Shown in pieces: positions 1-6,066 of a DNA stretch of 64,000 nucleotides. The stretch comes from Melioribacteraceae bacterium (GTDB taxonomy: Bacteria > Bacteroidota > Ignavibacteria > Ignavibacteriales > Melioribacteraceae). The position numbers and the translations under genes are program-made. Each line of letters starts with the position of its first letter. The first letter of the stretch is position 1. The DNA is taken from assembly GCA_030584085.1 (NCBI GenBank), contig CP129490.1, positions 2,513,511-2,577,510 of the forward strand, in the 5' to 3' direction. The notes below the pieces were generated by a model, which saw only the letters and a list, made by a program, of their open reading frames with translations, did not search any database and was not told the DNA's origin.

Positions 1-784
1 AAAGTGTTATGCCAATTTCAAACAAAATCGGGAATCTTTTTTGGATATCACCTTTCTGTAAAACTTCTTTCAATTCTGTTGGGAGACAATCTCTAAATGC
101 TTTGGATAATTTTTCCTCGGGAAATTTGTTTTCAAGATATTCGATTTTCGAACCTTCACAAATGACTACAGCATATTTCGAAACCATTAGTTGACCGATA
201 ATAGAAAAAACTAAAAGTTTTCCAATCATGTCTCTCTCAAGTATTCCGCTGAATTCTTTACTTAAATCAAAGAGTGAACTTAGCTGATTAACTTTTCCAT
301 CTAATTGCCGATTAAGATTTTTTAGTTTTTCGACTGATGAGGCATTATCAATTGCGGTTGCGGCAATATTGAGAAGTGTTTTTAAGAAATTTTTATCGTC
401 TTCTCTATACTCGTTTCCTCCAAATCTTTCACCGAGCATGAGTATCCCGATTTCACCTTCCGAAGAAATTATTCTTTGGCAAAGTTCGAGTTTATTCTTT
501 GTTAAAAATGCTTTGAACTCCTTATCTTCATCCAAGTCATTAATTCGAACATCGGGGAAATTATTGATTGTTTCCTTCACTAATCCTTTCGATGATCTAA
601 TTTCTAAAAAGTTATCGCTCCTTTTAATGGCTATACAACCGCGGCTTGTATGAAATTTGCCTAGACATGTTAGTAAAAGATTGTTAAACGTGAACTCGAC
701 ATCTAAACTGGAATTTATAAGATTGCTGAAATCAACAAGTGCTGAAAGGTTACGTAATGCTGAGTTTTGATCTTGAGTTTGCAT
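1..784 (-). CDS. GAF-domain signalling protein (3' part outside window)
   Basis: The reading frame opens with an ATG at 784 and stays open to the window edge, giving 261 residues without a stop, so the C-terminus lies outside. Residues about 10-150 look like a GAF sensor domain, with a start resembling other GAF proteins (LSALVDFSNLINSSLD) and a terminal helix leading to a linker near residue 155. A second GAF-like segment may begin at about residue 165 (LSSLFDLSKEFSGILE). The gene starts 4 bases after the stop of the RsbW-like kinase and is the last visible member of the sigma/partner-switch operon. A sensory role feeding that switch is an inference. Any C-terminal output domain cannot be seen. 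Confidence 0.75.
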   Translation of the reverse strand, partial: MQTQDQNSALRNLSALVDFSNLINSSLDVEFTFNNLLLTCLGKFHTSRGCIAIKRSDNFLEIRSSKGLVKETINNFPDVRINDLDEDKEFKAFLTKNKLELCQRIISSEGEIGILMLGERFGGNEYREDDKNFLKTLLNIAATAIDNASSVEKLKNLNRQLDGKVNQLSSLFDLSKEFSGILERDMIGKLLVFSIIGQLMVSKYAVVICEGSKIEYLENKFPEEKLSKAFRDCLPTELKEVLQKGDIQKRFPILFEIGITL

Positions 785-788
785 TAGA

Positions 789-1223
789 TTAAACTAAATA
801 TTTTACTAATACAACTTGGTTTTGGTTACCCGAAAGTGTGTTATACTGAACTTCATCCATTAATTTTTTCATAAGATACATTCCTAAACCGCCAACTTTT
901 CTTTGTTTATGATATTCCTTTAGATTTGGTTCGGGAATTAAATTGGGATCAAATTTGTCTCCGGTATCTGTTATTAGAATAGTAAACTTAGATTTTTCCA
1001 ACTTGGTATGCACGGTAATTTCTCTGTCGGGAGAAAATTTATAGGCATGTTTAATAACATTGGTACAAGCTTCATCAACTGCAAGTGAAATTTTACTAAC
1101 AATTTCCTGAGAGAAACCGCTTTCAAGAGCTGAATTTTGGATGAACTCTCTTATAGCTGCAAGATTATCCGTCGAACTTTTTACGGTAATCTCTCTTGTG
1201 ATATTATTAGTTTTAGCTGTCAC
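789..1223 (-). CDS. RsbW/SpoIIAB-like anti-sigma factor serine kinase
   Basis: This 144-residue protein is a stand-alone GHKL ATPase domain, the usual size for RsbW-type switch kinases. The N box reads DEACTNVIKHAY (about residues 49-60), the G1 box is DTGDKFD, and the G2 box is GGLGMYL. There is no histidine phosphotransfer domain and no membrane segment, so it is cytoplasmic. In the family, such proteins bind a sigma factor or another target and phosphorylate the serine of a STAS antagonist. The gene overlaps the upstream STAS gene by 4 bases, which fits a translationally coupled kinase-antagonist pair. Its target here is not shown by the sequence; the ECF sigma factor of the same operon is one candidate. 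Confidence 0.85.
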   Translation of the reverse strand: MTAKTNNITREITVKSSTDNLAAIREFIQNSALESGFSQEIVSKISLAVDEACTNVIKHAYKFSPDREITVHTKLEKSKFTILITDTGDKFDPNLIPEPNLKEYHKQRKVGGLGMYLMKKLMDEVQYNTLSGNQNQVVLVKYLV

Positions 1224-1579
1224 GAGTTTTGCGGCTCGGTAAATTTTTGAACTGCTTCTTTTTCTTCCTTGTAGAATTCATATAACATCGGAAAACCAAG
1301 AAGATCGAAAATATTATAAACATTTTCTTGCATGTTTGAAAACTTTATGTCGCCTCTATTATCTCTCATAGTTTCGACATAAGCCATAAAAACTCCTAAT
1401 CCGGCACTGCTGATGTAAGACAAGTCATTAAAGTTAACAACAACCTTGAACTTACTACCATCAATCAATTGATTGAAAGCGTTTTCTAGTTGAGGTGCTG
1501 TATGAGCATCAAGATAACCCTTAACATCAATAACGCTTACAGACCCAACTCCCCTTACATTGACGTTGAAATCTGCCAT
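1220..1579 (-). CDS. STAS-domain anti-sigma factor antagonist (RsbV-like)
   Basis: The 119-residue protein is a single STAS domain. The phosphorylation-site loop reads YISSAGLG (residues 55-62). Ser58 sits where the phosphoserine of SpoIIAA/RsbV lies, although the Asp that usually precedes it is Ser57 here. The family releases a target from an RsbW-type kinase when it is dephosphorylated. The start overlaps the stop of the SpoIIE-type phosphatase gene by one base, and the end overlaps the RsbW-like gene by 4 bases. The three genes therefore encode a phosphatase, a substrate and a kinase in order, a complete partner-switch set. Confidence 0.88.
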   Translation of the reverse strand: MADFNVNVRGVGSVSVIDVKGYLDAHTAPQLENAFNQLIDGSKFKVVVNFNDLSYISSAGLGVFMAYVETMRDNRGDIKFSNMQENVYNIFDLLGFPMLYEFYKEEKEAVQKFTEPQNS

Positions 1580-3648
1580 TAATTATCCCCGACTGATTTA
1601 TTGTTAAAATTCCATTTCATAATTAATAATGTTATGTCATCATGTTGAATATAATCTTTAGAGAATGTAGTTAGTTTCTCCATTATTTTATTTGATAAAA
1701 TTTCAGTGGAAGATTCAGCATTTGCAATTAAAATTTTTTCAAATCTCTCATAGCCAAAATCTTCCAATTTCGAATTTTGACTTTCCGGAATTCCATCTGT
1801 ATATAGTGTCAAAATATCGTTATTCTTTAATTGAATTTCCATGAGTTTAAGACTTTCCTTAAACTTATCTGTATTATCCAAAGCAAGACCTAAACCTACC
1901 GGCGTATATCTTGTAGCTTTACCATCACGGATAAGTATAACCGGATTATGCCCGCATCTTGCAAATCTAAATAGTCCGGTTTTAATGTTAAGTACACCAT
2001 AAATAGCTGTAACAAAACTTTTTGAATCAAGACTATTTGTCAGAATTGAATTAGCATTTATAAGGAGTTCTCGTGGGTCTAAAACAACTTTTGAAAGAGA
2101 TTCAAAGACTCCTTTAATTTCAGCCATAACAAAAGCGGCAGAAATTCCTTTACCGGAAACATCCGCAATTACAATTCCAAGATGTTCTTCGTTAATATGA
2201 AAAAAGTCATAATAGTCACCACCAACTTCAAACGCGGGGACAAAGAGCGCAGAGATTTCTAAATTTTTCAAATCAGGGGTTTTTGATGGTAAAATTTTAT
2301 ACTGAACTTCTCTTGCAACATCTAATTCTTTTTCAAGTCTCTCTTTTTCAATCGATTCTTCGATTAACATTGCATTTTCCATTGCCACTGATGCATAATC
2401 TGAAAAAGCTTCAATCGATTTTTTATCATCATCATCAAATGCAAAATCTTTTTTCCTTGCCGCAAAAAGAAAACCTTTCTTTTTTTCGTGAACTGTTAAG
2501 GGTGCAATTACAATCCAATTGAAATTAAATTTTCTCAAATCATTTTTAATTGAGACCTCGAAACTTCCCGGATTGAGACTAATAAGTGTATCAACTTCAT
2601 TAATATTTTCCGCTAAAATTTTCTTACTTAATTTGTCGGCTTCTAAGTACCCAATATTATTTACTGAAGCTAATTCATAATCATTATTATTTTTTATCAG
2701 AAGCCAGGCTGAATCTGAATTACAAACCTTTGTGGTTAACTGTGTTATTGTGTTTGCCAGTTCTTTAAAGTCGAGTACCTGCGTTATTAATTTTGTTAAA
2801 TCACGCAGAGAAGTTACTTCTTCAGCTTTCCGATCAAAAGCTTCAGCAGTTGGAAGATGAAACAATGTTGTAAAGAAAATTACACTGAAATAAATTGTTC
2901 CATATATCATTAATAGATTCAGAATGGAATGGAATCCCGGAGAGAAAGCGATTATAGTTTTAGTTAGTACATTGTCATCAAGCGAAAGAGCGAAATTAAA
3001 TCCGAATAGTATTCCGAGTGCAATCGATAAAAGAAGTAAATAGATTTTTTGCTTCTTAGTTAAAAATGCAATCCAAGCAACTCTTAGTGAGTTGATGGAA
3101 GCCAAGATTAATGCGACTACATAAAATGCATTTTTGGGATAATCAAATTCAGCATCAATATTTATTAATATGTTTGAGAAGAAAAGCAATATGAAGAATA
3201 CAAGCATTGTATTAAAATACGTTTTCGGATCACGTTTTTGTCTTAGGAAAAACAATTCTCGGAATGAGGCAAAAACATACGAGGATGCAGCCAAAAACAT
3301 AAAAGAAATTATTAACGAAAAAATAGATGTTATAAAATTTTGATTAGGTTCAAAAGTCGCGGTATCATATAAAAGCGAAGAAATAGAGATTGCAAAAAAA
3401 GTTAATGCAACAAGAATTCCAATGTTTAAAACAATTGGAAGTGGTGTAGCAATTCTTACGCGAATGAAATCAACTATATAACTAAACCACAAATACCAAG
3501 TAATAAATACAATTGTTTCACCAAACAAGACATAGACAAAAATATTCGGTGAATGAAATAAGACCTTAAAGATTAATAAAAGAATAGAAAAAGCAATAGC
3601 AGATTCAAGTTTCCGAGATTTGGGAATGTCCATTGATAGTAAATTCAT
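1579..3648 (-). CDS. Membrane SpoIIE-type PP2C phosphatase with GAF domain (RsbU-like)
   Basis: The 689-residue protein has an N-terminal region with about eight hydrophobic segments (residues about 17-265), a GAF domain (about 280-430), a short coiled linker with the motif DVAREVQYKILP (443-454), and a PP2C/SpoIIE phosphatase domain (about 465-680). Catalytic metal-binding motifs are present: GGDYYDFF (476-483), IADVSGKG (494-501), YTDG and HDDIT near the C-terminus. By family it should dephosphorylate a STAS protein such as the one encoded immediately downstream. The membrane module and GAF domain suggest it senses an envelope or small-molecule signal, which is inferred. It follows a gene for a single-pass membrane protein by 8 bases. 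Confidence 0.9.
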   Translation of the reverse strand: MNLLSMDIPKSRKLESAIAFSILLLIFKVLFHSPNIFVYVLFGETIVFITWYLWFSYIVDFIRVRIATPLPIVLNIGILVALTFFAISISSLLYDTATFEPNQNFITSIFSLIISFMFLAASSYVFASFRELFFLRQKRDPKTYFNTMLVFFILLFFSNILINIDAEFDYPKNAFYVVALILASINSLRVAWIAFLTKKQKIYLLLLSIALGILFGFNFALSLDDNVLTKTIIAFSPGFHSILNLLMIYGTIYFSVIFFTTLFHLPTAEAFDRKAEEVTSLRDLTKLITQVLDFKELANTITQLTTKVCNSDSAWLLIKNNNDYELASVNNIGYLEADKLSKKILAENINEVDTLISLNPGSFEVSIKNDLRKFNFNWIVIAPLTVHEKKKGFLFAARKKDFAFDDDDKKSIEAFSDYASVAMENAMLIEESIEKERLEKELDVAREVQYKILPSKTPDLKNLEISALFVPAFEVGGDYYDFFHINEEHLGIVIADVSGKGISAAFVMAEIKGVFESLSKVVLDPRELLINANSILTNSLDSKSFVTAIYGVLNIKTGLFRFARCGHNPVILIRDGKATRYTPVGLGLALDNTDKFKESLKLMEIQLKNNDILTLYTDGIPESQNSKLEDFGYERFEKILIANAESSTEILSNKIMEKLTTFSKDYIQHDDITLLIMKWNFNNKSVGDN

Positions 3649-3656
3649 AAATGTAC

Positions 3657-4910
3657 TTATTTATTTTTTCTTTTCATTTGTTCAATTCTCTTTTTCAATT
3701 CTTCTTTTGTTAATTGAACAGAGTCTTTTTTGGCTTTAACTAATTCATTTGCCAGTGAATCCATCTCAGCTCCGAATCGTTCCCAATACTCTTCATCCGC
3801 CTGACCTTTAAATGCGCTCTCAATTGATTTATTAACAATTTGACCCAAATTTTCAAAATTAAATTCAAACGCCATTGAGTGCAAAGTATCTTCCTTTAAT
3901 GCATCTATACCAAACTTAAGCGAACGTTTTAATGAATCGACATCAAAATTGAAAGAAATATTAGCTAATTCTTTGTTAATTTGATTAAGTGCAATACGCA
4001 GAGAATCCATGACTTCTTTATTAAACTTTTGAGTGTTCCATTCAACACTTGGTAGAGTATAAGAAAAACTCATTTCATTATTTGTATTCACATCAACTTT
4101 AGGTGGCTTAGGAATAACTACTCGAGAATGATCTCTATTTCTTACAGAAACTCTGAATTCATCTAATGAATTCTTCCTACTCCTTATTCGACTTATTTCA
4201 TCTTGTAATTTCTTTTCATTAAATGCAAGTTCAGATGTGAATGCAGTGTCATTACTAATAATTAAAAAATCTTTTGATGTATCACTTTTAATGTCCTCCA
4301 CAAAATCAAATGCGCTTCTAGATTCAAGGAAAGCATAATTGCCATCAAACAAACTACTGATTTTAGGCCTATTAACTGATTGCGAAAATGCTGCTATATC
4401 GGTCAATACAGCTTTTTGTAAAGAGGCAAGACGAGAATTAACAGCTAAGGTATTATTACCATCTGTTAAAACAGCTTCAGCCAATTCAGGTTGATAAGAT
4501 TCTAATATGGAGTCTAATTGCTCTATTTGATTATCATCAAACGCCATATACTTCACAAAGTTCTTATAATTTTCGGTATCTGGTTTATATGATGATGGAA
4601 GAATTTCGTAACTTACAACTTCATTTTGCTCTGTAAATTTGAGAAGTTTATTTTCTTGTTTGTCTATTGGAATTGTTTGATAGAGTGCAAAATTAAATAC
4701 ATCTTCGTTCGTTATATCTGTTCCAAAAAGAAGTGGTTTTAGATTTTGTGTGTAGATAGATAATAAATCGTTAGTTCCTTTGGAAACAATCTCCCCAAAA
4801 TCACCTCGATTTTCTTTAAAGTATATCATGAGAGAAATAGTAAGAACTGCAAGAAAAACTATAGGTGTTATTTTTTTTAATGCGTCTTTTTTATTAGCAA
4901 GACCTTTCAT
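3657..4910 (-). CDS. Single-pass membrane protein of unknown function in sigma-factor operon
   Basis: I do not recognise this 417-residue protein. A short basic N-terminus (residues 1-15) is followed by one hydrophobic segment (about 16-33). The rest, about 380 residues, should be extracytoplasmic and is hydrophilic, rich in Asp, Asn and Ser, with probable helical stretches around 220-260 and a very basic C-terminal tail. The gene begins 11 bases after the ECF sigma factor stop and precedes the SpoIIE-type phosphatase. The position right after a sigma gene is where anti-sigma factors usually lie, but the cytoplasmic part is too short for a typical anti-sigma domain and no zinc-binding HxxxCxxC motif is present. 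A signal-input role is only a guess. Confidence 0.7.
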   Translation of the reverse strand: MKGLANKKDALKKITPIVFLAVLTISLMIYFKENRGDFGEIVSKGTNDLLSIYTQNLKPLLFGTDITNEDVFNFALYQTIPIDKQENKLLKFTEQNEVVSYEILPSSYKPDTENYKNFVKYMAFDDNQIEQLDSILESYQPELAEAVLTDGNNTLAVNSRLASLQKAVLTDIAAFSQSVNRPKISSLFDGNYAFLESRSAFDFVEDIKSDTSKDFLIISNDTAFTSELAFNEKKLQDEISRIRSRKNSLDEFRVSVRNRDHSRVVIPKPPKVDVNTNNEMSFSYTLPSVEWNTQKFNKEVMDSLRIALNQINKELANISFNFDVDSLKRSLKFGIDALKEDTLHSMAFEFNFENLGQIVNKSIESAFKGQADEEYWERFGAEMDSLANELVKAKKDSVQLTKEELKKRIEQMKRKNK

Positions 4911-4921
4911 TAAACCCCCGG

Positions 4922-5512
4922 TTAAGAAATCAATTCATCTTGGTATGGCTCCAAAATAAATTTCAAACTTTCACGCGCTCTAAAAATTCTCGATTTCACT
5001 GTACCAACTTCACAATCAAGTTGATCAGCAATTTCTTTGTAACTCAACCCTTCAATATCTCGAAGAATTAATGGAACTTTTAATTTTTCAGGCAATTTTT
5101 CAATTCCCTTTCTTACTAACCCGGGTAAATCAGGACTATCGGAATGACCCTTTATACTTGGCTCGTTTATGGAATCTTTAATAGGAACAAAAATACTGCG
5201 AACCCTTTTTTTCCTAAGATAGTCTCTGCATTTATTAACCGTAATTCTGTAAAGCCATGTTGTAAATTTAGATTCAAATCTAAATTCCTTTATTTTATGG
5301 AAAACATTGATGAAAACATCTTGAGAAATATCATCAATATTATCAGCATCACCTAAAGTAAGAAAAACTAGGTTTCTAACTTTCTCTTTATGCTTCAAAA
5401 CTAACTTAGTAAATGCATCTTCATTTCCATCAATAAAATCTCGTATCAATTGGAAATCTTCGTTTTGATCATCACTAATAGGTAATGCGGAATCTTGATT
5501 TAGATTTGACAT
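4922..5512 (-). CDS. ECF-type RNA polymerase sigma factor
   Basis: The 196-residue protein has sigma-70 region 2 (about residues 30-105), including the conserved acidic stretch DNIDDISQDVF and the promoter-melting helix KFTTWLYRITVNKCRDYLRK. Region 4 lies at about 135-190, with the helix-turn-helix GLSYKEIADQLDCEVGTVKS. Region 3 is missing and the size fits the extracytoplasmic-function group. It is the first gene of an operon that continues with a membrane protein, an RsbU-like phosphatase, a STAS protein and an RsbW-like kinase. This arrangement suggests the partner-switch proteins control its activity, as for sigma B. No strong ribosome-binding site is seen before the ATG. Confidence 0.92.
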   Translation of the reverse strand: MSNLNQDSALPISDDQNEDFQLIRDFIDGNEDAFTKLVLKHKEKVRNLVFLTLGDADNIDDISQDVFINVFHKIKEFRFESKFTTWLYRITVNKCRDYLRKKRVRSIFVPIKDSINEPSIKGHSDSPDLPGLVRKGIEKLPEKLKVPLILRDIEGLSYKEIADQLDCEVGTVKSRIFRARESLKFILEPYQDELIS

Positions 5513-5730
5513 TTTAGACGATGCCTACCCCTTATAGTTCCAAGAAAACTAATTTTAGAAAGTTTAATTAAAACAGCCCTCTATAAGCAAAATAATCTTT
5601 CTTTTTATATTCAGAATGAATAACTTAGCTGTTAATATAAATATTTATGAAGAATAATTTTAGGTATAAATCTCAAAATTATTATATTAATTCCCAAGTT
5701 TTTAATAGAATTTAACAATCAGGAGAACCA

Positions 5731-6066
5731 ATGAAAATCAAAGTTTCCGAAAAATATGAAGCGGTAGTTATTGAGCTTAAAGGCAATGTTATGGGTGGTC
5801 CCGAAGCTCAAGAATTCAGTGATTTACTGCATAAGTTCCTTGATGAAGGTAAGAAACATGTTGTTGTAGATCTTTCTTCGGTAAAATTTATGAATAGTTC
5901 CGGCTTAGGCATGTTAATAAGCGGTTTTACGACTATGAAAAACGGTGGCGGCGGACTTAAGCTCGCACGTGCTACAGAAAAAATTAATAGCTTGTTAGTG
6001 ATAACAAAACTCATCACAATTTTTGAAAACTTCGATTCTGTTGATGAAGCCGTAAAAAGCTTCTAA
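5731..6066 (+). CDS. STAS-domain anti-sigma factor antagonist
   Basis: This 111-residue single STAS domain carries the phosphosite loop KFMNSSGLG, with the likely phosphoserine at Ser56; the preceding Asp of SpoIIAA is Asn55 here. The start is supported by AGGAGA 8 bases upstream of the ATG. The gene is divergent from the ECF sigma operon across a 218-base gap and is followed at once by a strong terminator, so it is probably monocistronic. It could be a second antagonist for the RsbW-like kinase of the neighbouring operon or serve another switch in the cell. The sequence does not decide between these. Confidence 0.85.
   Translation: MKIKVSEKYEAVVIELKGNVMGGPEAQEFSDLLHKFLDEGKKHVVVDLSSVKFMNSSGLGMLISGFTTMKNGGGGLKLARATEKINSLLVITKLITIFENFDSVDEAVKSF

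Follow-up and report, generated by a model that had tools for sequence, protein, structure and literature searches.

A regulatory rewiring, in which the membrane protein encoded beside an ECF sigma factor lost its anti-sigma domain and an RsbW-type partner switch was joined to the sigma operon, is well supported by comparison of a 64,000-nt stretch of a Melioribacteraceae genome (contig CP129490.1; hereafter, the window) with its relatives. Sequence comparisons indicate that two older systems were brought together, and that the loss of the domain and the entry of the switch into the sigma operon very probably occurred in an ancestor shared by the window's own family (f1, Melioribacteraceae) and its sister family f2, which belongs to the same order. 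The other families compared are f3, a further sister family of this order, f4 and f10, of the same class, and f21, of the same phylum.

The operon lies on the minus strand of a 3.74-Mb, single-contig genome and begins with the sigma factor gene (5512-4922), followed by the gene for a single-pass membrane protein (4910-3657). Downstream are PP2C1 (3648-1579), with a membrane region, a GAF domain, and a SpoIIE-type phosphatase domain; STAS1 (1579-1220), an anti-sigma antagonist-like protein with a candidate phosphosite at Ser58 in the motif YISSAGLG; and an RsbW/SpoIIAB-type serine kinase (1223-789), whose gene starts with GTG and overlaps STAS1 by 4 bases. The window edge cuts the next gene, PP2C2, leaving its N-terminal part (784-2). 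The initial annotation had all of these genes in their correct places, but the last of them, which it called a GAF protein, is a truncated SpoIIE phosphatase, the full product being a 559-aa GAF-SpoIIE protein. Beyond the edge, the operon continues with a third phosphatase, PP2C3 (832 aa; PDZ, membrane region, GAF, and SpoIIE), after which an MscS channel is encoded. Every predicted operon gene has a clear family match. On the plus strand, purA and STAS2 (5731-6066), a second STAS-only protein, diverge from the sigma operon; STAS2 is a member of the conserved neighborhood and is possibly a second substrate of the kinase.

The sigma factor carries sigma70 regions 2 and 4 only (Pfam) and no region 3, the domain composition of an ECF sigma factor, and its nearest solved structures are of the RpoE/AlgU type (AlgU/SigH of Pseudomonas and RpoE of E. 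coli). Membership of the kinase in the RsbW/SpoIIAB family is indicated by an HATPase_c_2 match (4e-31) and by the adjoining STAS gene; RsbW models score approximately 80 bits on this protein, which is below the equivalog cut-off. The catalytic boxes can be read in its sequence, including the E and N of the N box, the G1 box, and the G2 box, and the closest solved structure is an RsbW (6m36/6m37). Three more stand-alone RsbW-like kinases are encoded in the same genome (L092:7756-8166, L093:7880-8293, and L094:7978-8394). According to the gene-order listing, none of these resides beside a sigma gene, and one has STAS and SpoIIE-type neighbors.

An ECF-type promoter, GGAAC-N16-CGTCTAA (5514-5541, minus strand), sits immediately upstream of the sigma gene, with a single base between it and the start codon. 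With the -10 element so close to the ATG, the sigma mRNA is probably leaderless; in many relatives, too, this element ends within a few bases of the start codon. In 51 of 69 f1 loci, 63 of 68 f3 loci, and all of the f2 (5/5) and f10 (4/4) loci examined, the sigma start is immediately preceded by GGAAC-N15/16-CGTC, consistent with a sigma factor that would be autoregulatory through its own GGAAC promoter. As the switch module is in the same operon as sigma, the sigma factor should therefore drive its own switch. A stricter form of the motif, corresponding to a near-perfect ECF promoter, occurs at a single site in the genome, which is at sigma's own start. Among relatives, the strict motif is no commoner than a reversed-pattern control once the sigma promoters are set aside, and a wider regulon for the strong motif was rejected for lack of any excess over this control.

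The gene order of the locus recurs in 39 of the 39 nearest genomes (36 genera), as judged by the best sigma match in each genome, which answers the question raised in the initial annotation of whether relatives keep it. Across these genomes, the identity of RsbW falls to approximately 45-60% while the gene order stays, and such recurrence places the arrangement far from chance. In the order as a whole, sigma was found in 139 and an RsbW match in 140 of 146 genomes.

Outside the order, the sigma factor and the switch belong to different loci. Sigma orthologues from relatives in the class and phylum, which share 40-50% identity, have no switch behind them. Instead, the f4, f10, and most f21 loci comprise sigma followed by a membrane protein with approximately 80-115 residues ahead of its membrane helix, and in f4 and most f10 representatives this protein is homologous in sequence to the one encoded in the window. 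The N-terminal segment of examples from f3, f10, and f21 matches zf-HC2 and in part RseA_N, identifying it as an anti-sigma domain, although some scores fall just short of the curated cut-off and one example from f10 gave no match. The PP2C-STAS-RsbW-PP2C module of these outside relatives is located on another contig or far from sigma. Thus, the two systems were originally separate. In another locus of the phylum, L254 (G248:C35, 558-2456), a second, unrelated RsbW-like kinase/STAS pair directly precedes another ECF sigma and anti-sigma gene, so that ECF pairs adjoin switch genes more than once in the phylum.

An intermediate state is preserved in f3, where the sigma system and the module adjoin and the anti-sigma domain is intact. 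At least 122 nt separate the membrane gene from PP2C1 in every one of 51 f3 loci, compared with medians of 18 nt in f1 and 13 nt in f2. Terminator-like hairpins occur in this gap in 13 f3 loci; none was seen in 59 f1/f2 loci, where the gaps are mostly much shorter. A promoter-like motif ahead of PP2C1, picked by eye, is present in 14 of 57 f3 loci versus 1 of 69 f1/f2 loci. Furthermore, sigma and module are separated in 7-11 of approximately 64 f3 genomes. The module is in place with sigma and anti-sigma gone in G362 and G416, the module is gone in G425, and the two systems are 1.2 Mb apart in G472 and on separate contigs with other neighbors in G444 and G470. In G493 (78% complete) the module is present and sigma was not found, and G439, G423, G455, and G468 carry inserts of 1.3-6.3 kb between the systems. 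Separate placement of the sigma gene, which the initial annotation had named as evidence against a common circuit, is therefore real both in f3 and outside the order, although in these cases sigma keeps an anti-sigma domain of its own.

In f1 and f2 that domain is absent. All membrane proteins checked from these families have a membrane helix that starts at residue 1-22, as opposed to residue 78 or later in the f3, f4, f10, and f21 proteins, and in an AlphaFold model of the window's protein (mean pLDDT 72) the helix starts near residue 10. Neither the window nor any f1/f2 genome checked encodes beside sigma the anti-sigma domain that defines a class I anti-sigma factor. The initial annotation correctly observed that no ordinary anti-sigma factor is encoded; what it recorded simply as a membrane protein is, by comparison with orthologues in f3 and outside the order, the remnant of a former anti-sigma factor that has kept its periplasmic part. 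Inhibition of sigma by the short cytoplasmic tail left on this protein is very unlikely. That most f1/f2 genomes retain the membrane protein, encoded between sigma and PP2C1, would accord with such a role, but only about 1-22 residues remain ahead of the helix, and several f1 genera lack the membrane gene altogether and have PP2C1 directly after sigma. As these genomes lost the gene and kept sigma, the membrane protein is evidently not needed, which largely refutes control by the tail. Genomes of genus g37 that have lost the membrane gene (L074, L098, L099, and L168) also have no recognizable GGAAC promoter before sigma. Relocation of the lost domain is likewise unsupported, as searches of the f1/f2 genomes tested revealed nothing comparable elsewhere, the best score being 34 bits versus 113-119 in f3.

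The loss of the domain is accompanied by a change in linkage. Sigma and module are joined in 70 of 70 observable f1/f2 genomes, with no separations, whereas in f3 the sigma gene is often not fixed in an operon with the switch genes. With linked and separated loci both counted by hand from gene-order tables, and with 7 to 11 separations in f3, this difference gives a Fisher p of 0.005 to 0.0002 among genomes that are related and hence not independent; the f3 separations span at least seven genera. Based on tree length, the chance of observing no separations in f1+f2 is 0.003. In the sigma tree, f1 and f2 group together as a single clade (support 99), and a single domain loss therefore suffices.

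What restrains sigma after this loss is a matter of more guarded interpretation. We tentatively favor, just short of regarding it as probable, the view that RsbW now acts as the brake on sigma in f1/f2 through a direct contact that we infer. In the absence of a signal, RsbW would bind sigma and keep STAS1 phosphorylated on Ser58. A signal reaching one of the three SpoIIE phosphatases would lead to dephosphorylation of STAS1, which would then capture RsbW, and the freed sigma would transcribe its own operon via GGAAC-N16-CGTCTAA, yielding more sigma and more of the switch. In favor of this reading, the former brake disappeared just when the operon fused and the linkage became unbreakable, and a positive loop without a brake would be hard to understand. 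The sigma factor is evidently still in use, as it is as conserved as in f3 (mean sigma distance 0.46 in both f1+f2 and f3). ECFs aside, the only sigma factors found in the genome that carry region 3 are two RpoD-type proteins, and no target of the SigB/SigF type was found. The two RpoD-type sigmas (L095:5384-6238 and L096:5360-6220) are of near-equal length and have very similar N-termini. The sigma encoded with the switch lacks region 3, which targets of the SigB/SigF switch possess. ECF sigma factors in general lack this region, to which SpoIIAB has been seen to bind in SigF, and this speaks against the proposed contact.

The proposal of the initial annotation that an RsbW-type kinase holds this ECF sigma thus fits the obligate linkage that followed domain loss, but RsbW itself has no family-specific substitutions. 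Sites fixed differently in f1+f2 and f3 number 0 of 143 in RsbW, 15 of 194 in sigma, and 6 of 116 in STAS1, so the RsbW sequence gives no sign of a new partner. The sigma tree has a long branch both at the f1+f2 split and at the f1 stem, and only sigma has both. The partial distance correlation between sigma and RsbW is approximately zero, although the STAS1-RsbW control is also weak, and column covariation revealed no sigma-RsbW signal in a test where the known STAS1-RsbW pair performed no better than PurA controls, so that both tests lacked power. The sigma positions in contact with anti-sigma domains (listed in PMC7406223) showed no significant relaxation (p 0.21).

The lack of family-specific change in RsbW is also what would be expected if the sigma factor were a brakeless transcriptional amplifier, controlled by its level and driving the switch operon, with RsbW and STAS acting on a non-sigma target as they did before the fusion. 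We consider this possible, if somewhat doubtful. The module predates the linkage and exists independently of this sigma both outside the order and in f3 genomes such as G362 and G416, which argues that it has another output. Elsewhere, Rhodobacter RbaW yielded no sigma target (PMC3999984), the Bordetella switch governs secretion (PMC7498569), and ECFs without an anti-sigma factor that are under transcriptional control are known (PMC8999054). However, an amplifier leaves unexplained why the linkage turned unbreakable just at domain loss, and a brakeless autoregulated sigma would be expected to run away. With the strong motif no commoner than control elsewhere, moreover, such a sigma would regulate little but itself.

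The family-specific substitutions in sigma and STAS1, both of which show raised change on the f1+f2 branch, together with a partial distance correlation between these two proteins of 0.29 in f1+f2, might instead point to another, unrecognized inhibitor, such as STAS1, STAS2, or the product of an unlinked gene. This explanation appears improbable, because column covariation shows no signal beyond controls and the f1/f2 genomes searched yielded no relative of the lost domain scoring near those of f3. No STAS protein is known to inhibit a sigma factor directly. If RsbW is the brake, as we tentatively favor, the locus would represent an ECF sigma held directly by an RsbW-type serine kinase and a natural replacement of one anti-sigma class by another, with the intermediate stages visible in living families; we advance this broader claim with slightly more reserve. 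ECF and partner-switched sigma factors are treated as separate strategies, and the lineage described here seems to have exchanged one for the other within a conserved operon, with related families keeping each stage. These families offer a way to test if a sigma without region 3 can be held by an RsbW-type kinase, and how a signaling pathway changes its brake while control is maintained.

In the literature searched, no paper treats sigma and anti-sigma factors of Ignavibacteria. The nearest known systems are those of other groups. The Bacillus SigB and SigF switches (RsbU-RsbV-RsbW-SigB and SpoIIE-SpoIIAA-SpoIIAB-SigF) have the same three protein types in an operon with the sigma gene, and the catalytic boxes of the kinase and the STAS serine are present here as well. 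In contrast with those switches, the sigma factor is an RpoE-like ECF (group 4, without region 3), there are three phosphatases, and the kinase derives from a module that lies apart from sigma outside the order. With the RpoE-RseA type (class I membrane anti-sigma), the locus shares an RpoE-like sigma and a GGAAC/CGTC promoter, and the relatives in f3, f4, f10, and f21 share the placement of an anti-sigma domain before one membrane helix; f1 and f2, by contrast, have lost this domain and retain at most the membrane and periplasmic part. In Alphaproteobacteria, EcfG-NepR-PhyR likewise places an ECF sigma under a partner switch, but uses a sigma-mimic response regulator instead of an RsbW kinase and a STAS protein, and no PhyR or NepR occurs among the conserved neighbors of the locus. 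In one review (PMC8999054), EcfG/NepR/PhyR is the only ECF group listed under a partner switch, with none listed under an RsbW-type kinase. The Bordetella btr locus (BtrS, BtrU, BtrW, BtrV, and BtrA) similarly places an ECF sigma gene in one locus with all three switch protein types (SpoIIE phosphatase, RsbW-type kinase, and STAS protein); there, BtrUVW beside BtrS is not its brake, which is reported to be the separate anti-sigma factor BtrA (PMC7498569), whereas no anti-sigma domain is left in the locus described here. Neither the Bordetella Btr switch (PMC7498569) nor the Rhodobacter Rba switch (PMC3999984) acted via an ECF sigma. The parts of the f1/f2 operon are thus of known kinds, and what is new is their combination with a lost anti-sigma domain.
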